Source: Zobellia uliginosa (GTDB lineage: Bacteria; Bacteroidota; Bacteroidia; Flavobacteriales; Flavobacteriaceae). From it: a stretch of 59,987 bases of DNA. The notes under the pieces are model-generated. The model was not told the DNA's origin. It saw only the letters and a program-made list of their open reading frames with translations, and made no database searches. Both the position numbers and the translations under genes were made by a program. Position 1 is the stretch's first letter. Each line of letters begins with the position of its first letter. The stretch lies in contig NZ_FTOB01000012.1 in assembly GCF_900156625.1 (NCBI RefSeq), positions 1 through 59,987 on the forward strand, read 5' to 3'. Below, piece after piece: positions 2,878 to 17,001 of the stretch.

Positions 2878-3483
2878 ATGTTAAAGCCTTACCACCACAC
2901 CCCTATCAAGGAAGCGGGAACCGACGAAGCCGGAAGGGGATGCTTGGCCGGCCCCGTAACCGCCGCGGCCGTAATCTTGCCAAAGGGGTTCAAAAACGAG
3001 ATGTTGACCGACTCAAAGCAACTCTCACATACGAAACGCGACCTGCTTCGCCCTATTATTGAATCGGATTGCGCGGCCTACGCGGTGTCACATGTGTTTC
3101 CTGATGAAATAGACGATATCAACATTTTGAACGCTTCGATTTTGGCCATGCACAAGGCCCTGGCCCAATTAAAAACCGTTCCAAGGTTCATAGTGGTCGA
3201 CGGCAACAGGTTTAAACCTTTTCAAGACATCCCCCATGAGTGTATTATAAAGGGGGATGGAAAATACCTGAACATTGCCGCCGCATCGGTCTTGGCAAAA
3301 ACCTACCGAGACGCCTATATGGAGGAACTTCATAAAGAATACCCGGTTTACAATTGGAAAAAGAACAAGGGCTACCCTACGAAAGAACACCGTGAGGCCA
3401 TTCGCAAATACGGCATTACCAAATACCACCGTAAAAGCTTCAGATTACTTCCCGACCAGTTAGAGTTAGAGCTAAAGCTCTAG
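2878..3483 (+). CDS. rnhB: Ribonuclease HII
   Basis: A 201-residue cytoplasmic endonuclease that cuts the RNA strand of RNA-DNA hybrids and removes misincorporated ribonucleotides. The signature TDEAGRG near the N-terminus supplies the first metal ligands (D16, E17). VVDGN (D108) and the later [12 protein letters not shown] block carry the remaining active-site acidic residues. I chose the ATG at 2878 because the frame upstream extends only to a TTG and adds non-conserved residues. Length is typical for the family. Confidence 0.95.
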
Positions 3484-3611
3484 TTCTGTTTTTCTTACAT
3501 GTAGGAATATTACATTTTTGACCATTCATATAGTATTTGCTACCATCTATACACTATTTCTGCCCCAGAAATACAAGCTTCTATTTTCAAAATGTGATTT
3601 CCTTTAGTTTT

Positions 3612-3643
3612 GGTGTTAACCTTTTTAAGTGTTTCCCATAAAT
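3612..3643 (+). promoter_or_regulatory. ECF-type promoter element upstream of the OmpA/S8 operon
   Basis: GGTGTTAACC (3612-3621), 15 bases, then CATAAAT (3637-3643). The same two-part element with 15-16 base spacing lies upstream of the Kelch, small-peptide and collagen-like genes at 11.7-14.5 kb and, on the other strand, of the sigma gene. The AAC core of the upstream box and the spacing suit an ECF sigma factor. Which sigma uses it is inferred. Confidence 0.65.
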
Positions 3644-3710
3644 GAAAGAGAAGCACAAAGGCACATATTCATGCCTTAACGGATAATACTATTATTAAAC
3701 ACCGATCGAC

Positions 3711-5045
3711 ATGAAAAGACGAACACATCTGGCAAAACTAGTATTTGTTTTAGTGGGGCTTTTATTTGCAAGCCATACGAGCAACGCACAAATTCTAAGA
3801 AAACTTGGAAAGGCTGCTGAGCGGGCCGCGGAAAGAACCGTTGAAAGACGTGTAGAAAAAGAAACCTCCGAAAAAACCGATCAAGCCCTTGATAGCATTT
3901 TTGAACCAGGGGAAAGCAAAAAGAAGACGAAGAAAAAGTCCAGTTCAAAAAAAGACAAGACCTCAACCAATAAGGCGCCTGCCGAAACCAGCGGAAACTC
4001 CTCTTCAACAGTTCCGAAAAACGGTACGCCTACCATGGCCATATATAGCAAGTTCGATTTTGTTCCCGGAGACACTCCCCTCTTTTTCGATGATTTTTCA
4101 AATGACTTTGTGGGTGATTTTCCCTCGCGATGGAATACGAACGGAAGTGGCGAACTGGTTACCGTAGAAGGTGAAAATAGCAAATGGCTCAAACTTCTAC
4201 CAGGTTTCACAACCGCCTACATTCCCGATATAAGCCCCTTACCCGACGAATTCACCCTAGAATTTGACGTCATTGCACTGGGACTCGACAAAAAAACCTC
4301 GTCACAAGCGTACTTCGGCATTGTTATAGAAGACAACAATACCTTTAAAAAAGGAGCGAACATGGGCATGGTGGAATATTCCCTCTGCCAATTTATAGAC
4401 CCAGGGATAATCGTAGAAAACAAGGTCGCTTCAAAAAGGGTTATTCGAAACGTCGTAAAAGCCGATATACGTCAGGTTGTGAACAACAAACACCACATAT
4501 CGGTAGCCGTCAACAAAGAGCGCTTTCGATTTTGGATAAACGAGAACAAATATATTGACGTACCTCGCCTACTCCCCTCGAATATACAGATGCAGGGAAT
4601 AAAATTTATGCTTCGCGGAACGGATACCAATAAAGAATCTATACTAATAAGTAATATAAAGGTAGCCAAAGGAGGTGTCGACTTACGAAGGAAACTATTG
4701 GCCGATGGAAAAATATCGACCAATGGCATTCTGTTCAACAGCGGCTCGGCCGAGATACAGCCCCAGTCGATGGGCATTATACGGCAGATATATCAGGTAC
4801 TGCAACAAGACCCTTCCATCAACCTCAAGATCGTAGGCCATACGGACGCCGATGGAGATGACAAGAAAAACCTTCAACTTTCAAAGCAAAGGGCCGAGGC
4901 CGTAAAAAATGTACTCGTATCTATATATGATGTATCTTCCAGTAGATTATCGACCGACGGCAAAGGAGAATCTGAACCTGTTGGAGACAACTCAAGCCCC
5001 GACGGCAAATCTATGAACCGACGTGTAGAATTCATTAAACTATAA
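3711..5045 (+). CDS. OmpA-family envelope protein with N-terminal charged region
   Basis: A 444-residue exported protein. The signal peptide spans about residues 1-25 (SNA/Q). Next comes a strongly charged KAAERAAERTVERR-type helix and a Lys/Ser-rich linker (about 30-100). A central beta-rich domain follows (about 110-320, FDDFSNDFVGDFPSRW, similar to concanavalin-like folds). The C-terminal OmpA peptidoglycan-binding domain is at about 335-444 (ILFNSGSAEIQPQS, VGHTDADGDD, LSKQRAEAVKNVL, NRRVEF). The last domain should anchor the protein to peptidoglycan. It is first of three same-strand genes (12- and 34-base gaps) behind a shared ECF-type promoter element. The function of the central domain is unknown. 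Confidence 0.85.
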   Translation: MKRRTHLAKLVFVLVGLLFASHTSNAQILRKLGKAAERAAERTVERRVEKETSEKTDQALDSIFEPGESKKKTKKKSSSKKDKTSTNKAPAETSGNSSSTVPKNGTPTMAIYSKFDFVPGDTPLFFDDFSNDFVGDFPSRWNTNGSGELVTVEGENSKWLKLLPGFTTAYIPDISPLPDEFTLEFDVIALGLDKKTSSQAYFGIVIEDNNTFKKGANMGMVEYSLCQFIDPGIIVENKVASKRVIRNVVKADIRQVVNNKHHISVAVNKERFRFWINENKYIDVPRLLPSNIQMQGIKFMLRGTDTNKESILISNIKVAKGGVDLRRKLLADGKISTNGILFNSGSAEIQPQSMGIIRQIYQVLQQDPSINLKIVGHTDADGDDKKNLQLSKQRAEAVKNVLVSIYDVSSSRLSTDGKGESEPVGDNSSPDGKSMNRRVEFIKL

Positions 5046-5057
5046 ATAACACACCTT

Positions 5058-5756
5058 ATGAAGACCGCTTTTTTAACAACCGTATTATGCCTTATAGTGA
5101 CCACCTTCACTTTTGCCCAAGACAGCTGTAGCAAATTCTACCCTCTTGAAGAAGGGAGTTCGTTTGAATATACGAATTATGACAAAAAAGAAAAGGTAGA
5201 AGGCTCAGTGCACTACACCATTACCGAGGTCCGCTCTGAAGGCGCTGCTTCCGTAGCCACTTTTGATATGAAGTATAAGGATAAGAAAGGAAAGGACCTA
5301 TTTGAATCAAACTACTCCTTTAGCTGTGAGAACGGTCTGGTCACCATTGACTACAAATCACTTTTCCCCTCGCAAATGATGCAGCAATACACGGAAATGG
5401 GATTGGAAATGGACATCTCGGGAACCGATATCGAACTACCCAACGACCTGAGTGTAGGCCAACAACTGAACGATGCCAATGTTACGGTGGCCATGAGTAT
5501 GAGCGGCATAAACATGAACGTTTCGGTCGACCAGACGAACAGAAAAGTAGAAAAAAGGGAAAGCGTGACTACACCTGCCGGTACTTTCGACTGTTATTTG
5601 ATTACGGAAAACCACATGACCAAGACCATGGGCGCGACCATTGAAACCTCAACAAAACTGTGGCTGGCGGAAGGCATAGGCATGGTAAGACAGGAAAGCT
5701 ACAAAAAAAATGGCTCCTTAATGAGCCGAACCGAGCTTACCCGATTCACTAAATAA
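5058..5756 (+). CDS. Exported DUF3108-like (TapB-type) protein
   Basis: A 232-residue protein with a signal peptide (about 1-20, TFA/Q) and a beta-rich mature part. The start CSKFYPLEEGSSFEYTNYD and the late block VTTPAGTFDCYLI...TKLWLAEGIGMV match the DUF3108-like/TapB group, which are periplasmic beta-sandwich proteins of unknown role. It lies 12 bases after the OmpA-like gene and 34 before the subtilisin-like gene, so it is probably cotranscribed. Confidence 0.7.
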   Translation: MKTAFLTTVLCLIVTTFTFAQDSCSKFYPLEEGSSFEYTNYDKKEKVEGSVHYTITEVRSEGAASVATFDMKYKDKKGKDLFESNYSFSCENGLVTIDYKSLFPSQMMQQYTEMGLEMDISGTDIELPNDLSVGQQLNDANVTVAMSMSGINMNVSVDQTNRKVEKRESVTTPAGTFDCYLITENHMTKTMGATIETSTKLWLAEGIGMVRQESYKKNGSLMSRTELTRFTK

Positions 5757-5790
5757 TACAAGCAAAAAACGCTTACTAAATTTATAACCG

Positions 5791-7179
5791 ATGAAAACAA
5801 AAATATTCCTTCTGCTGTCACTACTGTTCATTGTAAGCTCTTGTGACGAGGATGACACCCAAGGCCTTATAATCGATCCTGACGATGTAATTATCGACGA
5901 AAACATCATAGTGGTCGACGAAGGAGCGGATAGCGGAAACCCCAAGATCTTTATTTCACCCAATGAAGTAATCGTCAAATACGACCCGGGGGTTTCACAA
6001 GACTCGGTAAGGCAAGACTTCCCCTTGCTCAATTATCAAAAATGCGACTGCGGGGATACCAATATTGAATTGTGGGTTTTTGACCCCGGCATCGATGAAC
6101 TTGAAATTGAAGGTGTTGTCCAAAGGCTTTCAAGACGCAGCGGGACACGGGGCGAACGCTCCTTCGACATTCAACTTACCCCCGTCGGACCATTTCCCCA
6201 GCCCGGACAGGATGTATTAGCCGATACAGTAGGCCTAGTCGGCCCTGCCTCGAGTCTTTCAGTTAACATTGCGGTCATCGATACCGGACTTGATTTTAAA
6301 AGATACCTGAACACCGAAAGCCCCGAGAAATTTTTATTTCCCAGCGGCTACTATAGCTACTGCTACGATACGGGTACTGGCTGGAATTTTACCGCCGACA
6401 ATAATGGCGACGGTATCCGTGAAGGAGACCCCTACTTTGTAGATGATAACGGGCACGGTACCTACGTAACCAAGATCATGACCGACGAACTCGACAAGAA
6501 AGGCGTCGACTATCAAATTCTGCCTTTAAAGGTTTTCGACGCAAATGGAAGGGGATCGTATTGGGACGTGCTTTGCTCCTTGGCCTACATAAAGGACATC
6601 AACCATTTTCGCAAGGTAATCGATATCGTAAATGCCAGTTTTGGCGGTGGGCTCCCACGTGAATTTTTTGACAAGCCGAAAGCCGGGGAAACCGAAAACA
6701 TCTTTTCCGGGATGCTGGAAGCCCTTAACGACCAAGGTACATTGGTCATTACCTCGGCCGGTAACGAAGGCGAGGATAACGATACGGGCACCGAAGGAGA
6801 TTTCCTGTCCTCTTTTGAGGCTCCCAACATCATATCGGTCGGGGGTTACAAGTACGATACGGTCAATCCCAGTGCCCGGCCGATCACTCTGCACGACTTT
6901 TCTAATTATGGAAGCAAAGGAAGCGTCGATATCGCATTGGCCTTCAACAACTATGAGATCATCTACGATACCAGCGACTCACTCCGAAAACAAAGGGTAA
7001 CCCTACATGGCACATCGTACGCCGCGGCCGCCTTGTCGGGCAAGGTCGGAACCCTGATCGACAGCTTAGGCAGTCGTCCGATCGAAGATCTAAAGAACAG
7101 TATTTTCAGCTTGACGGAACACGCGCCCCAGCTCAACGGCAAAATAGTCGATGGAAGGGCCCTTATCCGGGAAGAATAA
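5791..7179 (+). CDS. S8 (subtilisin-like) serine peptidase lipoprotein
   Basis: A 462-residue protein with a lipoprotein signal (LLFIVSSC, Cys at about residue 18) followed by a very acidic linker. The full S8 triad is visible: Asp164 in VIDTGLDF, His222 in NGHGTYVT and Ser409 in HGTSYAAAAL, with the oxyanion Asn in TSAGNEG. About 140 residues before the first catalytic residue could act as a prodomain. It should be an active protease tethered to the outer membrane or periplasm. It is last of the operon that begins at the ECF-type element at 3612 and is followed by a strong terminator. The substrate is unknown. Confidence 0.88.
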   Translation: MKTKIFLLLSLLFIVSSCDEDDTQGLIIDPDDVIIDENIIVVDEGADSGNPKIFISPNEVIVKYDPGVSQDSVRQDFPLLNYQKCDCGDTNIELWVFDPGIDELEIEGVVQRLSRRSGTRGERSFDIQLTPVGPFPQPGQDVLADTVGLVGPASSLSVNIAVIDTGLDFKRYLNTESPEKFLFPSGYYSYCYDTGTGWNFTADNNGDGIREGDPYFVDDNGHGTYVTKIMTDELDKKGVDYQILPLKVFDANGRGSYWDVLCSLAYIKDINHFRKVIDIVNASFGGGLPREFFDKPKAGETENIFSGMLEALNDQGTLVITSAGNEGEDNDTGTEGDFLSSFEAPNIISVGGYKYDTVNPSARPITLHDFSNYGSKGSVDIALAFNNYEIIYDTSDSLRKQRVTLHGTSYAAAALSGKVGTLIDSLGSRPIEDLKNSIFSLTEHAPQLNGKIVDGRALIREE

Positions 7180-7201
7180 TCTAAACCTCCCTAGGGAAGG
7201 A

Positions 7202-7235
7202 ACCGCCCATGAATGGCCATGGGCGGTTTTTTTTT
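7202..7235 (+). terminator. Rho-independent terminator after S8 peptidase gene
   Basis: A perfect 10-bp stem, ACCGCCCATG (7202-7211) with CATGGGCGGT (7218-7227), a 6-base loop and a run of nine T. It lies 22 bases after the S8 stop codon and ends the 3711-7179 operon. It also excludes a translation start at 7209 for the following gene. Confidence 0.9.
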
Positions 7236-7358
7236 ATGGCCGACGGTACTTTAAGAAAGTGCGATTTACCATTAAATTTCTTCCTATATTTAAGAATTGG
7301 TTTTGGACCGACAGATTCCTTATCCGCCGATCGATCCTCCCTAACCCGAATATCCCCT

Positions 7359-10121
7359 ATGGTGAACCTGCGATTCAACTGTATCCTTTTTTTTCTTTTG
7401 GGCCATTTGTGCATGGCACAACAAGAAATCTTGACCGAGATTATCCATACGGACGCGAAAAAGGAAGTGATCGAACAAAAAATCGATGCTTTCTTCGCCT
7501 CCCACACAAAAGATATGTCCCCAAGGGAATTGGCCGATTGCTACCACGATGTGGGCAATAAATGGTATCACGAACAGTGGTGGGACACAGGCGGGGAAAG
7601 CGATATCGAAAAGGCCATTTATTACACCCAAAAGGCCTTGGAAATCAAGTCGGGGCTAAAAGACCTGAAAAAGGGATCTTTGGACAACACCCGTTTTAAC
7701 CTCGGTGTATTTTACAGTCTTAAAGGGGAAATCTATAAGGCTCGAAACACTTTCTTGCATATTTCGAACAAGGGAAGTGACGTGGAATGGATACAAAAGG
7801 CCCGACTTGAACTAGGCTACAATTATTTGACCACAGGCGATTTCTACAAGGCCCTGAATCAATTTTCAGAGGTCACCTTATTGGATGCCGGGGTGCCAAC
7901 CTCCCCAAGCACATCGCCATACATTATCGATATCGACGCCCAAATCTTAGTGGCGGAGACCTACGCCGAAATGGACCTTAAGGAATTTTCGAACGAGATA
8001 CGTTTGAACCTCAAAAAAGCGGACTCCCTCATTGGTCTTCACAAAGAACCCGACAAACAATACCGAAGGCGTATCGACCATTTGGAGGGCAACCGACTTA
8101 TCGAAAACGGCAGCTACGAACAGGCCATCGCCAAACACAAGCAAGTACTAAAAGACTCCATGGACCTAGGACCCAGAGATATAGCGAACATACACAGCAG
8201 CATCGGATACTCCCATTTGAAATTAAAAAACTACAACGAGGCCCTCATCCATTTAAAAAGGGCAAATTCCTTGGTTGAAGATTTTTCCCTTCCTTATGAA
8301 AACCTGGGCGATTTTTACCTTGACCAAAATAATTACGAAAAAGCCCTCTATCATTACCAAAAAGCCATTGTAGTGTCAACCGACGGCAGAAAGGGAATAC
8401 GTTTCGATGAGCTTCCGTCCGTTGAGGACCTTGAACTTGCCAGCGAAAAAGTTGTTTTGCTTGGCCATATAATCGCCAAGGCCAACGCCTGGTTGAAGTT
8501 TTACGAATACGTCAAAAACAAAGACCACCTCGACCATGCTTTAAAAACCTTTGCACTTGCGGATCAACTGGTCGATATCATACGATCGGAAAGTACGGAA
8601 TACCAATCAAAGCTCTTTTGGCGCGAAAAAGGGGCTTCGTTGTACGCGAAGGCCGTACAGGCCTGTTACTTGCTCGACAAGCCTAAGGAAGCCTATTATT
8701 ATATGGAACGCAACAAGGCCTTATTGCTTTTGGAGGATGTGTCAGTGGAACAGGCAAAGGAATTGGCACAATTGCCCCAAAAAACCATAGAACGCGAGTT
8801 CAGGCTCAAACAAAATATTTATTTATCGGAAAACGAATTGAGGAATCTTGAACCTACTTCCGAAAGCTCCCTCGATTCGGTCAGGCAACGGGTCTATGAA
8901 AGCAAGCGGGTCTATAATGCTTTCTCAGATTCACTGGCTGCAGCCTTTCCCGACTATGCCAACATCAAAAAACAAGTCCGTTTGCTCTCGCATACCGATT
9001 TTATGTCCGATTACATTTCGGAAGACGAAGCCGTACTCCAATATATCCTTAACGAAGAACAAGGGTACGGTCTGTTGACATCAAGCGAACAAATCACTTT
9101 CTTCAAACTTGAAGACGTAAATAACCTGAACGAACAACTGATAGCCCTCTACGGCCGGTTGACCGACCTGACCACCAGCCGAGACGAGCTGGCGCGTTTC
9201 AATACCTTATCCCACCAAATTTTTAACCAATTGGTACCCGAAACGGTGCACGAGACAATTAAAGGAAAAAAACTGACCCTTATTACCGATTACATCTTAC
9301 AACAAATTCCTTTTGAAGCCTTTGTCACGGACCTCAATGGCCCCACCTACCTTATCGAGGATGCCGAGATCCGGTATGCCTATTCGATGTCGTACCTAAA
9401 CGCCAAAAAACAGGTCGACGACGTGGCCGAAAACGACCTCTTGGCCATAGCCCCTGTAACATTTAACACTTTGGGACTTCCAGAACTTGTGTTTAGTAAA
9501 TCTGAAGTGGAAGAAGCGGAAAGAATCTTTTCCGGAAAAAGGCTGATGAACCAAGAAGCAACAAAAGCAAGGTTTTTAGAACAGGTAAACGACTATAACA
9601 TTGTACATCTTTCTACCCATGCCGATATTGGCGAGGAGAACGACCCTTGGATCGCCTTTAGTGACGAAAAAATGTTCCTAAACGAAGTGTACGCCATAAA
9701 AAACCGGGCCGATATGGTGGTTTTGAGCGCCTGTAATACCTCTATCGGGGAATTAAAAAAGGGCGAGGGCGCCATGAGTTTGGCCCGGGGCTTCTTTCAT
9801 TCCGGGGCGAAAAGTGTGGTATCTTCCCTATGGTCTACCAATGACAAGAGCAGTAAGGAACTTATGGCAGCTTTTTACCAAGGTCTTGATGAGGGGCTCA
9901 CCAAATCGGCCGCACTGCGGAAGGCCAAAACCGATTATATCAACAAGTATCGGGGCAGCAGTATTTCTCCGGCCTATTGGAGCGCTTTGATCATTATCGG
10001 GGATAACCTACCGATCAGGCCTGCCCATAAGCAATGGCCTTATATCTTATATATAGTTCTAGGAATTCTATTGGCCTTAGTGCTTTATCTTCTTGTCAAA
10101 AGAAGGAAACACCTTTCCTGA
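7359..10121 (+). CDS. TPR-CHAT caspase-like protease with C-terminal membrane anchor
   Basis: A 920-residue protein from the ATG at 7359. This start gives a signal peptide (FNCILFFLLGHLCMAQQ); the frame is open upstream but crosses the terminator at 7202-7235. TPR-like helices run through about residues 50-450. The CHAT domain (caspase HetF-associated with TPRs) occupies about 600-880, with the catalytic dyad His754 (VHLSTHAD) and Cys792 (VLSACNTS) followed by GEGAMSLARGFFHSGA. One transmembrane helix near the C-terminus (about 890-912) is followed by KRRKH. Topology therefore puts the TPR and CHAT parts outside the cytoplasm. It is convergent with the sigma/anti-sigma-like pair, two bases apart. 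Its substrate is unknown; a partner encoded nearby is likely but inferred. Confidence 0.9.
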   Translation: MVNLRFNCILFFLLGHLCMAQQEILTEIIHTDAKKEVIEQKIDAFFASHTKDMSPRELADCYHDVGNKWYHEQWWDTGGESDIEKAIYYTQKALEIKSGLKDLKKGSLDNTRFNLGVFYSLKGEIYKARNTFLHISNKGSDVEWIQKARLELGYNYLTTGDFYKALNQFSEVTLLDAGVPTSPSTSPYIIDIDAQILVAETYAEMDLKEFSNEIRLNLKKADSLIGLHKEPDKQYRRRIDHLEGNRLIENGSYEQAIAKHKQVLKDSMDLGPRDIANIHSSIGYSHLKLKNYNEALIHLKRANSLVEDFSLPYENLGDFYLDQNNYEKALYHYQKAIVVSTDGRKGIRFDELPSVEDLELASEKVVLLGHIIAKANAWLKFYEYVKNKDHLDHALKTFALADQLVDIIRSESTEYQSKLFWREKGASLYAKAVQACYLLDKPKEAYYYMERNKALLLLEDVSVEQAKELAQLPQKTIEREFRLKQNIYLSENELRNLEPTSESSLDSVRQRVYESKRVYNAFSDSLAAAFPDYANIKKQVRLLSHTDFMSDYISEDEAVLQYILNEEQGYGLLTSSEQITFFKLEDVNNLNEQLIALYGRLTDLTTSRDELARFNTLSHQIFNQLVPETVHETIKGKKLTLITDYILQQIPFEAFVTDLNGPTYLIEDAEIRYAYSMSYLNAKKQVDDVAENDLLAIAPVTFNTLGLPELVFSKSEVEEAERIFSGKRLMNQEATKARFLEQVNDYNIVHLSTHADIGEENDPWIAFSDEKMFLNEVYAIKNRADMVVLSACNTSIGELKKGEGAMSLARGFFHSGAKSVVSSLWSTNDKSSKELMAAFYQGLDEGLTKSAALRKAKTDYINKYRGSSISPAYWSALIIIGDNLPIRPAHKQWPYILYIVLGILLALVLYLLVKRRKHLS

Positions 10122-10123
10122 AT

Positions 10124-10861
10124 TTATTCCAAGTCCTTTAAAAGTTTAAAGGCTTCCTCTTTTTTATATCGGCCATCGGCAACCAAATCAGTAAACATAC
10201 GGATGGCATTTTCCTTTTCATTTATTTTCAAATAGGCCAGTGCCGCATACCAAAGGGCCTGAGGCCTAAACTCGCCCTTTTCGTTTATGGTCTCATCAAA
10301 AAGGACAATAGCCTTCTCGGCCTGCCCATTTTTAAGATAAGATTGCGCCAGGTAGAAATTGACCGCTTCGGTGTTCTTTGTTTCTTTCAACTGGGTAAAT
10401 AGGGCTATCGCCTGAACATTATCGTTGGTCTCATAGGCCACAAAGGCTTTTCGCTCCAACGAAGTATCGGCTTCCTCTCCACGGGTAATGGCATATACCG
10501 TATTCGGATACTCTTGAAAATGCCGTTCGTACATATCTATATAACCCGACCCTGAAAAATTGTTGTACCCCAACCAGCCCAAACCGACCAATAAAGCTAT
10601 AGAGGCCGCCATGGCCCATTTGCGGTAAACGGTAAACGGTGCTGTTGCGGGCACTTCTTTTTGGATACCTTCTTCGAAGCCTATAAGTTTAGACTTAAGT
10701 TGCTTGGCCTCCTTTTCACGAATAACCTGCTTAAGATCATTTTCAAAATCGAATTGCCGCTTAAATTCACCATCGGTCTCCAAGAGTTCGGTAAATAGTC
10801 TTTCTTGCTCGGGCGTTAGCCGATTCGAAAAGTAATCGTTGAGTAATTGCTCTTTATCCAT
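10124..10861 (-). CDS. Single-pass membrane TPR protein, anti-sigma-like
   Basis: A 245-residue protein. The start at 10861 (MDKEQLLNDYF) is preferred because it lies three bases after the sigma stop codon; the frame extends upstream into the sigma gene. An N-terminal cytoplasmic region (about 1-75: DYFSNRLTPEQERLFTELL...) resembles the helical N-termini of Bacteroidota anti-sigma proteins. One transmembrane helix (about 81-102, WAMAASIALLVGLGWLGY) is followed by an extracytoplasmic part with TPR repeats (about 130-245: AVNFYLAQSYLKNGQAEKA, QALWYAALAYLKINEKENA). Gene order sigma then this protein supports a role as the sigma factor's membrane partner. That role is inferred. Confidence 0.75.
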   Translation of the reverse strand: MDKEQLLNDYFSNRLTPEQERLFTELLETDGEFKRQFDFENDLKQVIREKEAKQLKSKLIGFEEGIQKEVPATAPFTVYRKWAMAASIALLVGLGWLGYNNFSGSGYIDMYERHFQEYPNTVYAITRGEEADTSLERKAFVAYETNDNVQAIALFTQLKETKNTEAVNFYLAQSYLKNGQAEKAIVLFDETINEKGEFRPQALWYAALAYLKINEKENAIRMFTDLVADGRYKKEEAFKLLKDLE

Positions 10862-10863
10862 GA

Positions 10864-11433
10864 CTAGTAGGTATTTTCTTGGATGCGTTCCTTTAATGTT
10901 TTCATACACCTCGATTTGGCCGACTTGACCACATTTTCACTATTGTAATTGCCCGCTTTCATGATTTCTTGAATGGTGTAACCACGATAATAAAAGAAGG
11001 TCAATAATTCTTGGCATTTCGCCCCGAGGTCTTTAAAGTGCTTCTGGAGTAGCTTCTGCTCCCTTGTCAGGTCTGACCGCTCCAGGTCAAGAGTACTTAG
11101 TTGTTCATCAGGCTCGCCTACCCTAGTAAGGTCATAGCTTCCCGAGACTGTTTTTTTGTTCTTCCTCATCCTATCGAAAATTAAATACTTGCCAATAGAG
11201 AACAGATAGGTGGAGATACTGCTGGTCAAGTTTTCTAATTTTCCGTTCATTATGTTTTCATAAAAAACGATATAGGCATCTTGGTAGATATCGATGTTCT
11301 CTTCTTCCGTAAGCTTATAGCGCCTCGCAAAATTCAAAAACTTAGACCGGTTATCTTCATAGACCTTCCGGAGTGTTTCTTCAGAACCTGCTTGAAGTTC
11401 TTCCAGTGTAATATTTTTATCTGTCTCTTGCAC
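10864..11433 (-). CDS. ECF-like sigma-70 family RNA polymerase sigma factor
   Basis: A 189-residue protein with region 2 at about 20-90 (FLNFARRYKLTEEENIDIYQDAY; YLFSIGKYLIFDRMRKN) and region 4 at about 120-185 (LLQKHFKDLGAKCQELLTFFYYRGYTIQEIMKAGNY, then helix-turn-helix ENVVKSAKSRCMKTLKERI). Regions 1 and 3 are missing, as in ECF factors. The frame starts with GTG at 11433; no ATG, TTG or other GTG exists in the first 30 codons. A GATGTTAACC-type element on the same strand abuts this start, suggesting autoregulation. It is probably cotranscribed with the membrane TPR protein. Confidence 0.88.
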   Translation of the reverse strand: MQETDKNITLEELQAGSEETLRKVYEDNRSKFLNFARRYKLTEEENIDIYQDAYIVFYENIMNGKLENLTSSISTYLFSIGKYLIFDRMRKNKKTVSGSYDLTRVGEPDEQLSTLDLERSDLTREQKLLQKHFKDLGAKCQELLTFFYYRGYTIQEIMKAGNYNSENVVKSAKSRCMKTLKERIQENTY

Positions 11434-11465
11434 TTTAATAAACAGGAATTGAAAAGGTTAACATC
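11434..11465 (-). promoter_or_regulatory. ECF-type element abutting the sigma factor gene
   Basis: On the minus strand GATGTTAACC (11465-11456), 15 bases, then TATTAAA (11440-11434), the same arrangement as at five rightward sites nearby. The downstream box ends at the base before the GTG start, so a transcript from here would begin at or just inside the reading frame. It is either an autoregulatory promoter with leaderless or later translation, or an operator. Confidence 0.55.
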
Positions 11466-11702
11466 AACGGCCGCTAATTTAACATTTTTTGTATGCGCTT
11501 CTTGCTTATTGCCGGCATAACTCCCTATAAATTCACATTTGTAGTATTCTTATTACAGTATTTCGCTTCAACTATATAGGGTTGCTATCCAAATCCCCTT
11601 CCTAACCTAAAGTATTAGAAACCTAAAAATCAAGATTATAAAAAGCACACCGAAAAATTATAGAAGCGCTCAATAGACTTCATTTCTATTTTTTTATGTC
11701 TG

Positions 11703-11734
11703 GATGTTAACCTTGACGGACGTGTTTCATAAAA
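11703..11734 (+). promoter_or_regulatory. ECF-type promoter element upstream of Kelch-like lipoprotein
   Basis: GATGTTAACC (11703-11712), 15 bases, CATAAAA (11728-11734). The untranslated leader that follows (26 bases to the ATG) resembles those of the two collagen-like genes at 13.8 and 14.5 kb, including a CAAACATT/CAAGCATT-type run before the ATG. Confidence 0.65.
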
Positions 11735-11760
11735 TGGCAAACAAATAAATATCAAACATT

Positions 11761-12789
11761 ATGAAAATTATAAAATATATAACGATATGTAGCCTCTTTC
11801 TAAGCTTCCTTTCTTCTTGTGATAAAGACTTGGTCGGCGAGGCCAAAGACCTTGAAGAAGGACCGACCAAAGGGCTTCCCGAAGGCGACAGTCTCAGGCT
11901 TGAGATCACCACCGTAACCCATGAAGACCAAATGGGCAGTTTTTACGACAATGGAATGGTAGAGTTTCAGGGTAAAATTTGGTCCGTTGGTGGTTATAAC
12001 AGCTATAGCTTACCAAATTGCAATAGTGATATCTGGAGCAGCGATAACGGTATGAATTGGCGTAGTGTAACCTCTAACCAATTTGGTGCCAGAAGGGGAC
12101 ATGCGACCGCAGTTTTTAAGGACAAGATCTGGGTCATAAGTGGAATAAACACAGATGCTTCCCCTTATGTGGAATACGACGATATATGGTCTTCAACCGA
12201 TGGGGAAACATGGACACAAGAACTGGAACACGCCCCATTCGGACATATGTTCTACCCTAGTTTAACCGTCTTTCACGATAAGATGTTCCTTATCGGGGCA
12301 AATCGAACATCTTCTTTAAAGACAGAAGTATGGTCCACCACTGATGGTATTTCTTGGACCTTGGAAAGCTCTGATCCTTTTCCTCCGAGGGAAGCACACC
12401 AAACCGTTGTGTTTAACGACAAACTATATGTTATAGGAGGACAAGCCGAAGGTATTGCCTACAATGAAATCTGGGAAAGCGACAACGGTTCAACATGGAC
12501 TCGCTTAACCCTTTCTGGCGATATATTTTCCGATAGGTATCATCATGGTGTAGTCGTATATGATGGTAAAGTATGGATTCTTGGAGGAATGGGGCTTCTT
12601 ACAGGACCCTATGCAGATATATATTATTCCGACAATATGGAAGATTGGACCCAATATACCGATTTAGGCCCATCGCCTACTCCCCTGAACAAATTTGCCA
12701 CCCTTAACTATGACGGGGCCATTTGGATCTTTGGCGGTCATGACAATCGTGAACCCATCGGGGAAATCGTAACGCTCGAAGCTATGTGA
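11761..12789 (+). CDS. Kelch/galactose-oxidase-like beta-propeller lipoprotein
   Basis: A 342-residue protein with a lipoprotein signal (LFLSFLSSC, Cys at about residue 20) and an acidic linker. At least five repeats of about 50-60 residues follow: a Kelch-like strand pair such as GKIWSVGG, DKIWVISG, DKLYVIGG, GKVWILGG and GAIWIFGG, then a segment of IWSSDNGMNWR / IWSSTDGETWT type. That pattern forms a beta-propeller. It is probably exposed on the cell surface and may bind a ligand; no catalytic residues are recognised. It is monocistronic, between an ECF-type element and a terminator. Confidence 0.8.
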   Translation: MKIIKYITICSLFLSFLSSCDKDLVGEAKDLEEGPTKGLPEGDSLRLEITTVTHEDQMGSFYDNGMVEFQGKIWSVGGYNSYSLPNCNSDIWSSDNGMNWRSVTSNQFGARRGHATAVFKDKIWVISGINTDASPYVEYDDIWSSTDGETWTQELEHAPFGHMFYPSLTVFHDKMFLIGANRTSSLKTEVWSTTDGISWTLESSDPFPPREAHQTVVFNDKLYVIGGQAEGIAYNEIWESDNGSTWTRLTLSGDIFSDRYHHGVVVYDGKVWILGGMGLLTGPYADIYYSDNMEDWTQYTDLGPSPTPLNKFATLNYDGAIWIFGGHDNREPIGEIVTLEAM

Positions 12790-12913
12790 CTATACACCAT
12801 GAAGACACTTTTATATTAATAAGCGTCTTTATTAATTCTTGGAAGAGGTAATAAATTTCAAAGTGGCTTTGTAAACGAAGAACCAAAATCCGAAAAAAAT
12901 ACCTTCATATAAA

Positions 12914-12942
12914 CAAAAAAACCGAGTCTAACTCGGTTTTTT
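12914..12942 (+). terminator. Terminator after Kelch-like gene
   Basis: ACCGAGT (12921-12927), a three-base loop and ACTCGGT (12931-12937), with an A-run before and six T after, so it could work in both directions. It separates the Kelch gene from the next ECF-type element seven bases downstream. Confidence 0.8.
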
Positions 12943-12948
12943 CATTCC

Positions 12949-12980
12949 GATGTTAACCTATGTGCTTTCCTTACATAGAA
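12949..12980 (+). promoter_or_regulatory. ECF-type promoter element upstream of small peptide and lipoprotein
   Basis: GATGTTAACC (12949-12958), 15 bases, CATAGAA (12974-12980). It directly follows the Kelch terminator and precedes a 30-codon reading frame at 13005 and the lipoprotein gene at 13158, with no terminator between them. Confidence 0.62.
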
Positions 12981-13004
12981 TAAAGAACCCTAAAATGAAA
13001 GAAC

Positions 13005-13097
13005 ATGGACACTTATGAAAAATTAGAATTCCTTAAAAGGATACTCATCCTTGCCTTTATGATAACGATATCGACCCTGATCACACTTGTGGCCTAA
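13005..13097 (+). CDS. Candidate 30-residue membrane peptide
   Basis: A short frame with ATG at 13005 and TAA at 13095, 25 bases downstream of an ECF-type -10 box, the same distance as for the lipoprotein genes of this locus. The product has a charged start (MDTYEKLEFLKR) and then an unbroken hydrophobic stretch of about 17 residues to the C-terminus (ILILAFMITISTLITLVA), so it could be a single-pass membrane peptide. It lies 60 bases before the next gene. There is no family match I recognise; only position and composition support it. Confidence 0.45.
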   Translation: MDTYEKLEFLKRILILAFMITISTLITLVA

Positions 13098-13157
13098 AGC
13101 CCGACTCGACCCTATACTTCGCAATGCTTGCCCATTAACCACTTAAAAGCTTCAATT

Positions 13158-13712
13158 ATGTACACGACAAAACACCTCTATTCAACTTTAAGAAAATTTG
13201 CCACTATAGCCTTCTTACCTTTTCTTATGGGAAGCTGCGAAACCGAAATACCTTTGGAAGACAACGACCCGCCAAACTTTAGTATTCAGATTACAGGAGA
13301 CGGATTTAGCGAAAGCTTTGACCAAGACACCGATTTCAACAGCTTTCAATTGAACCTAAAGAGAGGGGCCACCTATAATTTTATATTGACCGGAGCCGAC
13401 CAAGGCGGGTTAAAGCGATTGGAAATGTATTTTACCCCCGATTACATAGAGATGAACGCCAATCTATACGGGCCATGGCAAATGACCACCTTAACGCCCC
13501 TTACAGATTTAATTTATTGGAACGGCGATCGCTCATCTCCCCTTACCGGAACAGTGTTAGACGGTTCCTTCAACACCAAGGGCGACATTGTTTCCTTGGA
13601 AATCTCCCTCTACCTAGTAGACTATGGAGGTGATACCGGTAGTATGAACAGTTCCAGTGCAGCGTTAAACATCCTTATTGACGACCACGATACGGAAATC
13701 GTATTTTTCTAA
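13158..13712 (+). CDS. Lipoprotein of unknown function
   Basis: A 184-residue protein starting at the ATG at 13158, chosen because the 10 upstream codons are not signal-like. The lipoprotein signal ends FLPFLMGSC with Cys at about residue 27. The mature part is beta-rich (FSIQITGDGFSESF, NFILTGADQGGLKRLEMYF, SLEISLYLVDYGGDTG), possibly an immunoglobulin-like sandwich. I do not recognise the family. It is probably cotranscribed with the 30-residue peptide from the ECF-type element at 12949. Confidence 0.75.
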   Translation: MYTTKHLYSTLRKFATIAFLPFLMGSCETEIPLEDNDPPNFSIQITGDGFSESFDQDTDFNSFQLNLKRGATYNFILTGADQGGLKRLEMYFTPDYIEMNANLYGPWQMTTLTPLTDLIYWNGDRSSPLTGTVLDGSFNTKGDIVSLEISLYLVDYGGDTGSMNSSSAALNILIDDHDTEIVFF

Positions 13713-13754
13713 ATAGATTCGGCGAACCCTCCCCTTAATTTTTTATTCCTTTAT

Positions 13755-13786
13755 GATGTTAACCATAACTTACGTTATGCATAAAA
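13755..13786 (+). promoter_or_regulatory. ECF-type promoter element upstream of collagen-like gene 1
   Basis: GATGTTAACC (13755-13764), 15 bases, CATAAAA (13780-13786), then a 26-base leader nearly identical to that of the next gene copy. Confidence 0.68.
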
Positions 13787-13812
13787 CACCAAACGCATAA
13801 ATAACAAGCATT

Positions 13813-14424
13813 ATGAAAACCACATTCAAAATTTTATTCTTAAGCTTTTTTAGTATCGCAGCATTAACGACTTCTTGTTCAAAGGATGGGGATACTGGCC
13901 CAATAGGCCCCCAAGGCGAACAAGGACCGGCAGGGGAACCAGGTGTGCAGGGCCCGGAAGGACCAGCAGGGGAAGATGGTAACGCCAATGTCATCGCTTC
14001 CGAATGGTTTCCCTTAACTTTTGAAAAAACCATAGTAAACGAACTGCCACATTATAATAGCAACAAAGCAGTTCCCGAAATCACTTCTGAAATCGTTGAA
14101 AAAGGAACAGTAATCGTTTACGGCAAACTAAACGGTTATACCGAAAACGTTTGGCCGGCCGACAAAGTAGCCCAATTTCCGATTACGGTCATGTACAATG
14201 CCTTGGAAAATACCCAAATCGACATTTATAAAGCGTTTATTTCTGAAGGAAACATACAATTCAACCTTACCGAAAACTATGACATCCATGGTGGTGTAAG
14301 CCCATATCATATGTATAGGTATATTATCATCCCAACAAACTCGGTTACGGAAAAATCCCAAAATCCCAACTTCGACAAAATGACCTATCGTGAAGTTATG
14401 GACCATTTTGGACTTGATTATTGA
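13813..14424 (+). CDS. Collagen-like lipoprotein, copy 1
   Basis: A 203-residue protein. The lipoprotein signal ends ALTTSC (Cys at about residue 23). About 11 Gly-X-Y triplets follow ([15 protein letters not shown]...; about residues 26-58), then a beta-rich C-terminal domain of about 145 residues ending KMTYREVMDHFGLDY. Gly-X-Y tracts form collagen-like triple helices, so the protein is probably a surface-exposed trimer with a globular head. It is a close paralogue of the next gene, with the same promoter, leader and terminator. The function of the head domain is unknown. Confidence 0.82.
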   Translation: MKTTFKILFLSFFSIAALTTSCSKDGDTGPIGPQGEQGPAGEPGVQGPEGPAGEDGNANVIASEWFPLTFEKTIVNELPHYNSNKAVPEITSEIVEKGTVIVYGKLNGYTENVWPADKVAQFPITVMYNALENTQIDIYKAFISEGNIQFNLTENYDIHGGVSPYHMYRYIIIPTNSVTEKSQNPNFDKMTYREVMDHFGLDY

Positions 14425-14443
14425 TAAAATCATTTACAAAATG

Positions 14444-14474
14444 AAAAACCGAGGCCTACACCTCGGTTTTTTTT
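14444..14474 (+). terminator. Terminator after collagen-like gene 1
   Basis: ACCGAGG (14448-14454), loop CCTACA, CCTCGGT (14461-14467), then a T-run. The hairpin and its upstream flank are repeated almost unchanged after copy 2. Confidence 0.85.
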
Positions 14475-14480
14475 ATACCC

Positions 14481-14513
14481 GATGTTAACCTTGCTATAGC
14501 CTGCACCATAAAA
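14481..14513 (+). promoter_or_regulatory. ECF-type promoter element upstream of collagen-like gene 2
   Basis: GATGTTAACC (14481-14490), 16 bases, CATAAAA (14507-14513). It lies only seven bases after the T-run of the preceding terminator. Confidence 0.66.
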
Positions 14514-14539
14514 AGGCAAACGTATAAATAACAAGTATT

Positions 14540-15187
14540 ATGAAAACCACAATGAAAATTCTATTCATGACATTTTTGAGCATTACCGCACTGATTACTT
14601 CCTGTTCAAAGGACGGGGATGTCGGTCCTATTGGGCCACAAGGGGAGGAAGGCCCTATTGGCCCCCAAGGAGAGCAAGGTGAACAAGGACTCCAAGGCGA
14701 ACAGGGCCCACAAGGACCGGCCGGTGAAAACGGGGAAGATGGGGAAGACGGTAACGCCGAAGTATATTACAGCGATTGGATTCCTGCAGATTTTACGGGT
14801 ACCTCGGAAACTATACAATATATGAGAATCGATTTTCCAGCATCTATGGAATCTGCCTTTAGAATTAAAAACACCCATATTGTTTTGGTCTATTTCACCG
14901 GTTATGGCGACGGCAACGTTTACCAACTACCCATACTCAATTTTAGAGGAGCCCAATTTACCTTTGGCTATGGTTCTGGTAGTAGTACTTCAAAGGATAT
15001 CATCATAAACGCAAGATCAATAAGCACCAACCCACTGAGCGAGTACGCTATAAGCCCTGAACGAGGGAATAGGTTCCGTTACCTTATCATTCCCCCGAAC
15101 ATTCTCATCTCTTCAAAAGGGAATAGGCCAGATTTCAACAAAATGACCTACCATGAAGTTATGGACTATTTTGGACTTGACTATTAA
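14540..15187 (+). CDS. Collagen-like lipoprotein, copy 2
   Basis: A 215-residue paralogue of the gene just upstream. The lipoprotein signal ends ALITSC (Cys at about residue 23), followed by about 16 Gly-X-Y triplets (about residues 26-73; five more than copy 1) and a head domain ending [15 protein letters not shown]. The signal, the first triplets and the last 15 residues are the most alike, while the middle of the head is diverged. The unit promoter-gene-terminator is duplicated as a block. It is probably a surface-exposed trimer. Confidence 0.82.
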
Positions 15188-15205
15188 AAAATCATTTACA
15201 AAATG

Positions 15206-15235
15206 AAAAACCGAGGCCTACACCTCGGTTTTTTT
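15206..15235 (+). terminator. Terminator after collagen-like gene 2
   Basis: ACCGAGG (15210-15216), loop CCTACA, CCTCGGT (15223-15229) and a T-run. It is identical in stem and loop to the terminator at 14448, consistent with block duplication. Confidence 0.85.
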
Positions 15236-15242
15236 ATGCGCC

Positions 15243-15473
15243 GATGTTAAGCATGACCTATGGAAAAGCCTTCCCTTAGTTATTTCCAAAGAGGTTCTAA
15301 TGGATATTGATGAAATCAAAGTTGGGTCTATCTTGGTAAAATCCGATTTTAGCCAAACGATAGACTTTAGATTCATTCTTGTAGAAGGCCATCTATCTGG
15401 AAAAACAGGAAGGGAAAACATTAAAAAAATGACTTACGAAGAAGTTATGCAGTATTTTGGTTTGGAACACTAG
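15243..15473 (+). pseudogene. Remnant of a third collagen-like lipoprotein unit
   Basis: A degenerate upstream box GATGTTAAGC (15243-15252) without a clear -10 box is followed by an open frame that, from the ATG at 15300, encodes 57 residues ending KKMTYEEVMQYFGLEH. That matches the last residues of the two intact copies (KMTYxEVMDxFGLDY), and DFRFILVEG aligns with their YRYIIIP/FRYLIIP segment. Signal peptide, Gly-X-Y tract and most of the head are missing. It is followed by a terminator. I read it as an internally deleted third copy; expression of a short peptide cannot be excluded. Confidence 0.7.
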
Positions 15474-15498
15474 GGTACTTTTTAAACAAAGAAAAAAA

Positions 15499-15522
15499 CC
15501 TCGGCTCACGCCGAGGTTTTTT
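15499..15522 (+). terminator. Bidirectional terminator between collagen-like remnant and lipB
   Basis: CCTCGGC (15499-15505), loop TCAC, GCCGAGG (15510-15516) followed by six T, with an A-run on the other side. The stop codon of lipB (15506-15508, minus strand) lies in the loop, so the last codons of lipB form one arm. Confidence 0.8.
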
Positions 15523-16225
15523 CTTGTTCAATTATTTCCGCTTCGAAAAGGGCTTCAAAATGTTTCAGCAACTTTCCTTTTACTTCGTTCAGGTCAACTT
15601 CTTGCTTTCCTAATTCTACATTTAAAGAAGTAACGGCCTTATCCTTTATGCCACAGGGAATCATCAAATCGAAATACCCTAAGTCGGCATTGACGTTCAA
15701 GGCAAACCCATGCATGGTCACCCAACGGCTGGCCCGAACGCCCATGGCACATATTTTTCGGGCAAATGGCGTTCCTACATCGAGCCAAACTCCCGTCTCA
15801 CCTTCCGAGCGCTCTGCCTTCACCCCATATTCGGCCAAGGTCAAAATTACCATTTCCTCTAAAAACCTAAGGTACCTATGGATATCGGTAAAAAAATTGT
15901 CCAGATCCAAAATAGGGTATCCTACTATCTGCCCGGGGCCATGGTAAGTGATATCGCCACCCCTATTTATTTTATAGAATTTGGCATTTTTAGCGGCAAG
16001 CTCTTCTTCGCCCACCAAAAGATTGGCCAAATCACCACTCTTGCCCAAAGTATACACATGGGGGTGTTCTACAAATAAAAAGTGATTGGGGGTCGGCTCA
16101 TCGGCCTCTTCCCTTCGGTTCTTGATCTTTAAGTCTACCGTTTGCTTAAACAGTAATTCTTGATAGTCCCAAGTTTCCTTGTAGTCTTTCTGTCCGAGAT
16201 CTTGAAAAAGTACCTTTTTGTTCAT
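15506..16225 (-). CDS. lipB: Octanoyl-[acyl-carrier-protein]:protein transferase
   Basis: A 239-residue enzyme that moves octanoyl from acyl-carrier protein to lipoyl domains (for example of 2-oxoacid dehydrogenases), the first step of lipoate synthesis. Family blocks are clear: [32 protein letters not shown]157 in [11 protein letters not shown] and the acyl-accepting Cys191 in [14 protein letters not shown]. It is followed on the same strand by no gene; its 3' end forms part of a terminator. Confidence 0.95.
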
Positions 16226-16251
16226 GGCACAAAGATACGAAAACAGACGGC

Positions 16252-16989: not shown

Positions 16990-17001
16990 CTAAAATCGAT
17001 T

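Follow-up and report, generated by a model that had tools for sequence, protein, structure and literature searches.

A conserved two-part element marks the probable regulon of an ECF sigma factor encoded beside a putative anti-sigma factor and a TPR-CHAT protein in Flavobacteriaceae

In the genome of Zobellia uliginosa (5,303,163 bases in 27 contigs), copies of a short two-part element surround a sigma-factor gene, which raises the question of whether they are the promoters that this sigma factor recognises, and of why one copy lies at the sigma gene's own start codon. The window analysed here is the whole of contig C19 (59,987 nucleotides). The sigma gene (10864..11433, minus strand) encodes 189 amino acids, and its product is an ECF (group 4) sigma factor, scoring above the cut-offs of both sigma70 region 2 (Sigma70_r2, PF04542; 25.1 bits, cut-off 24) and the ECF superfamily (NCBIfam sigma70-ECF, TIGR02937; 49.9 bits, cut-off 42.9). 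A sequence search of the PDB with the sigma factor gave no hits.

The exact first box, TGTTAACC, occurs six times in the window. On the plus strand the elements occupy 3614..3642, 11705..11733, 12951..12979, 13757..13785 and 14483..14512, and on the minus strand 11435..11463 (first base 11463). The spacer to the second box is 15 bases at five copies and 16 at 14483, and the second box is CATAAA at four copies, CATAGA at 12974 and TATTAA before the sigma gene. These are the six sites named in the preliminary description, which had also proposed a decayed copy near 15243 and no further two-box copy in the window. Both points held: a degraded first box, TGTTAAGC, lies at 15245..15252 (plus strand) with no second box, and no two-box copy with the exact first box was found beyond the six. 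The longer first box of that description, GATGTTAACC, was rejected because the 5' 'GAT' is not conserved in relatives; the TTT following the box is. Between 3.6 and 14.5 kb the pattern TGTTAACC-N15/16-YATWRA was observed six times, against a mean of 0.025 and a maximum of one in 200 first-order Markov windows.

The element at 3614 begins 97 nt before the gene of an OmpA-domain exported protein (3711..5045; Pfam OmpA, 7.4e-22), the first gene of a probable operon, and a similar TTTAGTTTTGATGTTAACC... is found upstream of OmpA genes in several relatives. The ORFs downstream of this element continue through a DUF3108-like exported protein (5058..5756; Pfam PF21347, 2.6e-71) and an S8 subtilase, a lipoprotein by its N-terminus (5791..7179; Pfam Peptidase_S8, 6.8e-17), as far as the gene of a TPR-CHAT (caspase-fold) protein (7359..10121; Pfam CHAT, 8.8e-53), all on the plus strand. 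The TPR-CHAT ORF is also open from 7209. On the same strand, a Kelch-repeat protein, again a lipoprotein by its N-terminus (11761..12789; Pfam Kelch, 2.4e-28), starts 56 nt after the first base of the element at 11705, and a 30-aa peptide that contains a single hydrophobic stretch (MDTYEKLE...; 13005..13097) starts 54 nt after that at 12951; of 37 other loci, 15 have similar small peptides following the element. An exported protein with homologues in relatives and no Pfam match (13155..13712, plus strand) has no element of its own and is perhaps cotranscribed with the peptide. Collagen-like lipoproteins 1 (13813..14424, plus strand; Pfam Collagen, 25.9 bits, under the cut-off of 27.2) and 2 (14540..15187, plus strand; 36.3 bits, same cut-off) start 56 and 57 nt after the elements at 13757 and 14483. 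Signal-peptide, lipobox and transmembrane calls were made throughout with simple rule-based scripts.

The whole genome holds eight matches to TGTTAACC-N15/16-YATWRA, six of them in the window, and two to the backward-read control, while the looser TGTTAACC-N13-18-CATA gave four matches outside the window against six for its control. Of the two outlying copies, one (C12:612429) lies 56 nt upstream of a lipoprotein gene and the other (C16:135778) 47 nt upstream of a gene for a secreted protein, with a paralogous sigma gene some 4 kb away. The motif was then counted in 299 genomes of the family, comprising 23 with an orthologue of the sigma factor (at least 49% identity), 32 with a paralogue only and 244 without a match. 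Strict matches, whose numbers are inflated because gene cassettes and their promoters are inherited together (the two collagen-like genes of the window are duplicates), came to 122 in the orthologue genomes (5.30 each; reversed-pattern control 0.61), 15 in the paralogue-only genomes (0.47 each; control 0.41) and 56 in those without a match (0.23 each; control 0.41). At least two copies were present in 19 of 23 orthologue genomes and 8 of 276 others (Fisher p = 3.5e-20, uncorrected for kinship). Furthermore, congeners with and without the orthologue differed in the same way (6 and 0 matches in G038 and G261, 7 and 0 in G258 and G032, 8 and 0 in G050 and G270).

In the 17 of 23 orthologue genomes for which all match positions were listed, 56 of 85 matches lay within 15 kb of the sigma gene and 29 were distal. 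Some members of the regulon probably lie far from the sigma gene. The link between the element and the sigma gene at 10864, which the preliminary description had offered as an inference, is strengthened by a motif that tracks the orthologue over 299 genomes and between congeners, and the clustering that it had reported around the sigma gene recurs in most relatives. A random genome-wide spread, named beforehand as one outcome that would count against the proposal, was not seen, as the motif is almost confined to the sigma locus. In one genome (G171) both strict matches are far from the sigma gene, and another (G177, sigma factor 50-51% identical) has no strict match. Some matches are near paralogous sigma genes (C16:135778; G011:C25:713300), and therefore the specificity may be common to orthologous and paralogous sigma factors. 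In a search of the phylum, 30 of 296 genomes matched the sigma factor at E 1e-12; of 28 loci obtained (L107 repeats a genome already used), anti-sigma matches were present in 12 and CHAT matches in 3, counts in which absence means little because the loci span only ~1.5 kb per side.

The consensus derived from 38 orthologous loci is TGTTAACCTTT-N12/13-CATWAA. The element lies a median of 56 nt from the ORF, with 135 of 165 non-sigma sites at 45-70 nt, and 123 of 147 downstream ORFs look exported, compared with 163 of 414 background ORFs. An AAC in the -35 box is a hallmark of ECF-type promoters. The AAC core and spacing that had first suggested ECF recognition are retained in the relatives, with a spacer of 15 or 16 nt and an orientation towards the gene. 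The consensus scan admitted only these two spacers and no CGT box, and it was repeated anchored on the first box alone. Among the 95 sites with TGTTAACCTT before an ORF, 81 carried CATNAA, always at 15 or 16 although 12-20 was allowed, 14 carried another sequence and none the CGT that is found in the F. psychrophilum ECF motif SM6. The fifth base of the second box, where left open, was A at 169 of 177 sites in orthologous loci, and T at 19, A at 16 and G at 2 in paralogous loci; no residue of sigma region 4.2 cleanly separating the orthologous from the paralogous loci was seen by eye. Reading the element as an ECF promoter is well supported.

The sigma gene's own copy, TGTTAACC-N15-TATTAA (11435..11463), stops a single base short of the GTG start codon, and its first base is 30 nt from that codon, compared with 54-97 nt at the other window copies. 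In the scan of the 38 orthologous loci, all 35 sigma-gene sites were at 28-30 nt. Three loci are missing from the 35, their second box having failed the pattern; two of these (L022 and L023) keep the start-codon geometry and the third (L071) has none. The second box abuts or overlaps the sigma start codon in 37 of 38 loci, including one counted by eye (L019, which failed the pattern but shows CGTTAACC with the same geometry), and in 12 of 20 paralogous loci (L077 added by eye), the other 8 being without this arrangement. Just upstream of the window's copy lies TAAATTAG (11474..11481, minus strand), which resembles the -7 box of sigmaA (TAnnTTTG), and 30 of 35 sigma-gene elements, compared with 20 of 165 other elements, are preceded by TAnnTTWR at a distance of at most 20 nt. 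Because the second box abuts the start codon, this copy is unlikely to be a positive autoregulatory promoter of the ordinary kind. A transcript driven by the sigma factor would lack the sigma start codon and could therefore express only the putative anti-sigma factor, and the element is a candidate built-in off-switch that may act on the sigma gene.

The sigma gene adjoins that of a putative anti-sigma factor (10124..10861, minus strand) with an N-terminus of ~80 aa, a transmembrane segment (script) and TPR repeats (Pfam hits). Its AlphaFold2 model has a pLDDT of 84.7; among the 50 of 1413 fold-search matches listed, TPR proteins dominate and none is informative for the N-terminal part. A membrane TPR protein of this kind and a TPR-CHAT protein are near the sigma gene in 58 of 58 loci compared, with the CHAT gene convergent in all but L058 and L094. 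A signal peptide and a C-terminal transmembrane segment are predicted in the window's TPR-CHAT protein, which has, with its CHAT domain and His-Cys dyad (His754 and Cys792), the features of a CHAT peptidase. Its homologues lack a signal peptide in 10 of 58 cases and a C-terminal transmembrane segment in 9 of 58, and the anti-sigma candidate has a transmembrane segment in 52 of 58 homologues (all by script). A Foldseek search with the CHAT model (pLDDT 74.6) gave Csx29 as its best match (7y9x_B; E 9.3e-15, prob 1.00), in a superposition that is loose, the model being multi-domain (TMq 0.39, rmsd 16.8), and DdvA as the 6th and 7th matches (E 3.8e-13), also loosely (TMq 0.26). No Csx29, Csx30 or DdvA chain was among the matches listed in the PDB sequence searches (for two of them, the best 60 of 133 and the best 60 of 68). 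Descent from Craspase gained no support by sequence, Csx29 and DdvA having been found by fold search only. A role as a defence system was likewise set aside, as PADLOC returned for six proteins only weak matches, one of CHAT type (BovA, 24.6 bits) and one of subtilase type (28.1 bits).

Other explanations of the repeats have to be weighed. They could be the mere trace of recent duplication of terminator-promoter-gene units with no common regulator, and the collagen-like units at 13757 and 14483 and a remnant at 15231-15473 are indeed duplicates sharing the same terminator. However, the 147 ORFs that follow elements in the 38 loci form 23 BLAST clusters, old copies before unrelated genes keep both boxes and the 15/16 spacing, and motif numbers depend on the sigma factor, which makes this explanation scarcely credible. 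It is improbable, too, that the element is the operator of an unlinked transcription factor. GTTAAC is palindromic and reads alike on both strands, and the sigma-gene copy is in a position from which an operator could prevent transcription or translation; against this, the second box stands at a fixed spacing and faces the gene, conservation beyond GTTAAC is asymmetric, TTT being found on just one side, the number of copies goes with the sigma gene, and of ten window genes compared only the sigma factor, the anti-sigma candidate and CHAT are present in 58 of 58 loci.

Two further alternatives accept the ECF promoter and concern its control. Positive autoregulation is usual for ECF factors. Many are described as autoregulating in the available part of PMC10028731. 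The sigma start could be misplaced or lie further in, so that the start-codon copy raises sigma levels in an ordinary positively autoregulated regulon. Some in-frame ATG, GTG or TTG is present within sigma codons 2-30 in 25 of 37 loci, mostly GTG or TTG and in varying places, but 12 of 37 have none. The frame upstream is closed, by a stop immediately before the ATG where the sequence reads CATTAAATG and by TGT-TAA within the window's own sigma-gene element, and the sigmaA-like box is rightly placed to make a translatable mRNA. We therefore regard ordinary autoregulation as rather unlikely. Somewhat less unlikely is control without CHAT, in which the TPR anti-sigma factor is processed by the site-1/RseP route and CHAT is a mere neighbour. 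Such routes are general for membrane anti-sigma factors such as RseA and RsiW, as far as the excerpts available go. However, CHAT accompanies the pair in every locus, including paralogues at 37-45% identity, the dyad columns are kept in 58 of 58 homologues, and the predicted topology mostly faces the same compartment as the periplasmic part of the anti-sigma candidate.

From the motif with its distribution and geometry, the gene order, the domains and the conserved residues, all observed directly, we infer that the sigma factor binds the motif and that its neighbour restrains it until a cleavage step, with feedback at the start codon. We judge this overall reading likely. The element would serve the ECF sigma factor as its -35/-10 promoter and would drive a mostly local, fast-changing set of exported proteins (the collagen-like and Kelch lipoproteins, the 30-aa membrane peptide and the OmpA/DUF3108/S8/TPR-CHAT genes). 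The sigma factor would most likely be held by the adjacent single-pass TPR anti-sigma factor and released when the envelope-facing TPR-CHAT peptidase cuts the periplasmic part of the latter, with the S8 protease assisting in some lineages. A sigmaA promoter would give a translatable sigma/anti-sigma mRNA; active sigma factor at the start-codon element would block that promoter and yield an mRNA able to express only the anti-sigma factor, ending the response.

Parts of this arrangement have parallels in known systems. Bernal-Bernal is said to have reported in 2024 that the periplasmic part of DdvA has a TPR-CHAT fold, DdvA reportedly being one protein with an incomplete catalytic site. The DdvS/DdvA system of Myxococcus xanthus, from a different phylum (PDB 8rot, 8rw5), likewise pairs an ECF sigma factor with a membrane anti-sigma factor. 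An envelope-facing TPR-CHAT fold (by predicted topology) also stands beside such a pair here, but as a gene separate from the anti-sigma gene rather than joined to it in one protein, and with the His-Cys pair kept. DdvS, in the excerpt available, controls an anti-phage island, whereas the putative targets here are exported proteins. The Csx29/Csx30/CASP-sigma system of type III-E CRISPR, as far as the available part of PMC10028731 describes it, also combines a TPR-CHAT peptidase, an ECF sigma inhibitor and local motif copies, and Csx29 chains are the best structural matches to the predicted TPR-CHAT fold. Craspase is RNA-guided, whereas here a signal peptide and a membrane anchor are predicted for CHAT, and the anti-sigma candidate has a TM-TPR architecture. 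On inspection, the ORFs in window positions 1-20000 included no evident Cas7-11 or Csx30.

Related caspase/ECF sigma/TPR neighbourhoods appear in the available part of Kaur et al., 2021 (PMC8195603); compared by description, they are built on EACC2 and TRADD-N with a DUF1822 TPR protein, and no promoter motif was seen in that part. In the excerpt of PMC3489674 on Corynebacterium glutamicum SigH/RshA, housekeeping promoters serve sigma and anti-sigma together and a SigH-dependent promoter serves RshA alone, a proposed shut-down resembling the one suggested here, although those transcripts start 62 and 66 nt upstream of rshA and the element here lies on the sigma start codon itself. The Bacteroidota ECF21 Das/Dma system likewise has an ECF sigma factor with a membrane anti-sigma factor, but Dma is described in the excerpt of PMC13088901 with a tether and a beta-barrel domain, compared with TPR and an accompanying CHAT here. 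In F. psychrophilum, a member of the same family, the ECF promoters of motif SM6, mapped by transcript 5' ends, have CGT in the -10 region according to the part of PMC9723704 available, unlike the CATWAA found here. Among the literature matches listed, none described the sigma/anti-sigma/CHAT trio or the motif.

For a group of Flavobacteriaceae ECF sigma factors that stand, outside CRISPR, beside a caspase-fold peptidase, the element provides a sequence-defined regulon. Two questions become open to direct test: can free periplasmic CHAT peptidases carry out the site-1 cleavage of anti-sigma factors, and can a promoter on a start codon work as an off-switch? Tentatively, and with more doubt than confidence, the system may be a widespread Bacteroidota relative of the Craspase and DdvA circuit that faces the envelope. 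In it, an ECF sigma factor would be released from a TPR anti-sigma factor by a free periplasmic TPR-CHAT protein, the start-codon promoter would form a one-element pulse generator, and either CHAT type A plus S8 or type B by itself would be exchanged between loci as an input cassette, with exported cargo as the output cassette. Should Craspase and DdvA have a common origin with trios of this kind, the latter could, speculatively, be a living form of the ancestor. Among the 38 orthologous loci, the S8 subtilase co-occurs only with CHAT type A.

A plain scan recovers TGTTAACC six times in the window, at 3614, 11705, 12951, 13757 and 14483 on the forward strand and at 11463 on the reverse strand, and nowhere else there. 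These are the six copies listed in the preliminary description, which was right about the repeats and their coordinates, and its decayed copy is found at 15245 as TGTTAAGC, without a second box. The spacer between the boxes is 15 bases at five copies and 16 at 14483; the second box reads CATAAA at four copies, CATAGA at one (12974) and TATTAA at the sigma gene (10864..11433, reverse strand). The pattern TGTTAACC-N14-17-[CT]AT[AT][AG]A was observed 6 times; 200 first-order Markov windows gave on average 0.025 matches and never more than 1. Within 12900-15240, terminator-like hairpins with T runs directly precede the elements at 12951, 14483 and decayed 15245, so the genes of this region look like terminator-promoter-gene cassettes. 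At 15231-15473 lies the remnant of a third collagen-like unit: besides the decayed first box it retains a C-terminal fragment that ends in KKMTYEEVMQYFGLEH, resembling the ends of both intact collagen-like genes.

The genome-wide search proposed in the preliminary description covered the 5,303,163 bases of the organism's own genome, with the window as the entire contig C19. The loose form TGTTAACC-N13-18-CATA occurs 9 times, including 5 in the window, and its control (the same pattern read backwards) 6 times. For TGTTAACC-N15/16-YATWRA, a form wide enough to match every window copy, there are 8 occurrences, 6 of them in the window (control, 2). Two copies lie outside, a number not above that of the control: C12:612429, 56 nt ahead of a lipoprotein gene (product MGTKNMFILLVIAFQVSSC...), and C16:135778, 47 nt ahead of a secreted-protein gene, with a paralogous sigma gene approximately 4 kb away. 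Both look functional. Over the genome as a whole, the element is thus not randomly spread. The C16 region (130000-149900; locus L077) holds a second trio of sigma, candidate anti-sigma and TPR-CHAT genes, in which the sigma start codon bears a TGTTTACT element and a gene approximately 4 kb away has the TGTTAACC form.

The association of the motif with the sigma gene was examined by searching 299 Flavobacteriaceae genomes for the sigma protein (E 1e-20 or better; orthologues defined by at least 49% identity) and for TGTTAACC-N15/16-CATWAA. Sigma matches were present in 55 of the 299 genomes, 23 with an orthologue and 32 with lower-identity paralogues only. The orthologue genomes contained 122 motif matches (5.30 per genome; control, 14), the paralogue-only genomes 15 (control, 13) and the remaining 244 genomes 56 (control, 100). 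At least two motif copies occurred in 19 of the 23 orthologue genomes vs 8 of the 276 others (Fisher p = 3.5e-20, uncorrected for kinship). Three genera were sampled with one orthologue-bearing and one orthologue-free genome each, which carried 6 and 0 copies (G038, G261), 7 and 0 (G258, G032) and 8 and 0 (G050, G270), respectively, and in the organism's own genus both orthologue and motif were present in 9 of 9 genomes. There are two counter-cases: G177 has the sigma factor at 50-51% identity and zero motif copies, and in G171 both copies are distant from the sigma gene. Where every match was listed (17 orthologue genomes), 56 of 85 are no more than 15 kb away from the sigma gene; roughly one third are therefore distal or chance matches. 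Copy number thus tracks the orthologue across the family and between congeners, and by this comparative evidence the proposed assignment of the motif to the sigma factor is well supported.

A consensus was derived from 38 orthologous loci, no two with the same sigma sequence (18 Flavobacteriaceae loci, 19 further loci and the window). Excluding the sigma gene's own sites, 165 two-box sites stand ahead of ORFs, with consensus TGTTAACCTTT-N12/13-CATWAA; kinship among the loci and gene duplication make these site and ORF counts non-independent. The spacer is 15 in 123 sites and 16 in 42 (only these two were allowed), and the median distance to the ORF is 56 nt (45-70 nt in 135 of 165). A second scan was anchored solely on TGTTAACCTT before an ORF, with spacers of 12-20 left open; CATNAA was found in 81 of 95 such sites, 61 at spacer 15 and 20 at spacer 16, and neither CATNAA nor CGT in the other 14. 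When the fifth base was left open it was A at 169 sites, T at 6, G at 1 and C at 1, which provides an internal check on chance matches. BLAST sorts the 147 downstream ORFs of at least 80 aa into 23 clusters, the largest with 33 ORFs in 22 loci (collagen-like repeats in 22 of these ORFs), the second with 30 OmpA-type ORFs in 30 loci. By a simple rule, 123 of the 147 look exported, vs 163 of 414 background ORFs. Furthermore, a 30-aa membrane peptide with a single hydrophobic stretch (MDTYEKLEFLKRILILAFMITISTLITLVA, MDTYEKLE...; 13005-13097), which has no Pfam match, sits under an element, as do its relatives in 15 of 37 other loci.

At the sigma gene itself the start codon either follows the second box immediately or falls within it (CATTAAATGG, TATTAAAGTG). 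In 37 of the 38 orthologous loci (36 by script, L019 by eye) an ATG or GTG start codon is 28-31 nt from the element's first base; the 35 sigma-gene sites passing the full pattern all fall at 28-30 nt, whereas the other 165 centre on 56. The same arrangement is seen in 12 of 20 paralogous loci, L077 included, with TGTTTAC, TGTTAAC or a variant as first box. No in-frame ATG, GTG or TTG occurs in sigma codons 2-30 in 12 of the 37 loci examined; in the other 25 such codons are mostly GTG or TTG, at differing positions. Of the 35 sigma-gene elements, 30 have a TAnnTTWR box at most 20 nt upstream, vs 20 of the 165 others; the box resembles TAnnTTTG, the sigmaA box that has been mapped in F. psychrophilum.

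The simplest reading would be a sigmaA-dependent mRNA plus a sigma-driven transcript that skips the sigma start codon. A sigmaA promoter would give a sigma/anti-sigma mRNA with a leader of approximately 35 nt; sigma-RNA polymerase would bind within this leader and begin transcription behind the start codon. The resulting transcript would yield anti-sigma and not sigma, and the polymerase positioned there would hinder the sigmaA promoter. C. glutamicum SigH follows a comparable logic, with a promoter that stands upstream of rshA.

The gene following sigma (10124..10861, reverse strand, in the window), the anti-sigma candidate, is of the same type in 58 of 58 loci (38 orthologous, 20 paralogous), each with a TPR-CHAT gene nearby. 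It encodes an N-terminal part of approximately 80 residues, a membrane helix (by our own rule in 52 of 58) and a TPR domain, which in the structure model (pLDDT 84.7) is like that of YbgF. Among the 27 of 58 homologues that were aligned, N120 and R127 never vary; they belong to the conserved YPNTVYAITRG segment immediately outside the membrane, a possible recognition site. The CHAT gene (7359..10121, forward strand) is convergent with the sigma/anti-sigma pair in all loci but two: S8 and CHAT are inverted in L058, and in L094 the CHAT match is on the opposite side. Its product has a signal peptide in 48 and a C-terminal transmembrane segment in 49 of 58 homologues (our own rules), and all 58 conserve His754 and Cys792. 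An AlphaFold2 model built on an alignment of seven sequences (pLDDT 74.6) best matched Csx29 of Craspase (E 9.3e-15), followed by the transmembrane anti-sigma DdvA (E 3.8e-13); both E-values are strong, but both superpositions are loose (TMq 0.39 and 0.26, respectively).

In its proposed mechanism, the system would work like an ECF regulon with caspase-fold input. DdvA/DdvS is one known form of such a regulon; the present system is not a DdvA, its parts being separate proteins. Another is Csx29/Csx30/CASP-sigma (PMC10028731), and caspase, ECF and TPR gene neighbourhoods have likewise been described (PMC8195603). The second box differs from the F. psychrophilum ECF motif. Among the literature matches listed, no description of the sigma/anti-sigma/TPR-CHAT trio or of the motif was found. 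An ECF regulon as such is of an ordinary kind; its distinctive features here are a caspase-fold partner and an element at the start codon.

The presumed peptidase input appears mosaic. In 13 of the 38 orthologous loci, the window included, CHAT is 49-100% identical to that of the window (type A); in the other 25 it is 24-30% identical over partial alignments (type B). All 13 type A loci and none of the 25 type B loci have an S8 match (E 1e-6); in the window this is the subtilase at 5791..7179 (forward strand). CHAT type does not follow sigma relatedness (L013, with 80% sigma identity, is type B; L025, with 64%, type A), and between the window and Pseudozobellia thermophila (L012) CHAT is 94% identical and sigma 77%, which suggests that the peptidase cassette has been exchanged between loci. 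In the draft assemblies behind L013, L014, L015, L016, L017, L018, L024, L025 and the window, no more than approximately 13 kb separate the sigma gene from a contig end, and a repeat may be nearby.
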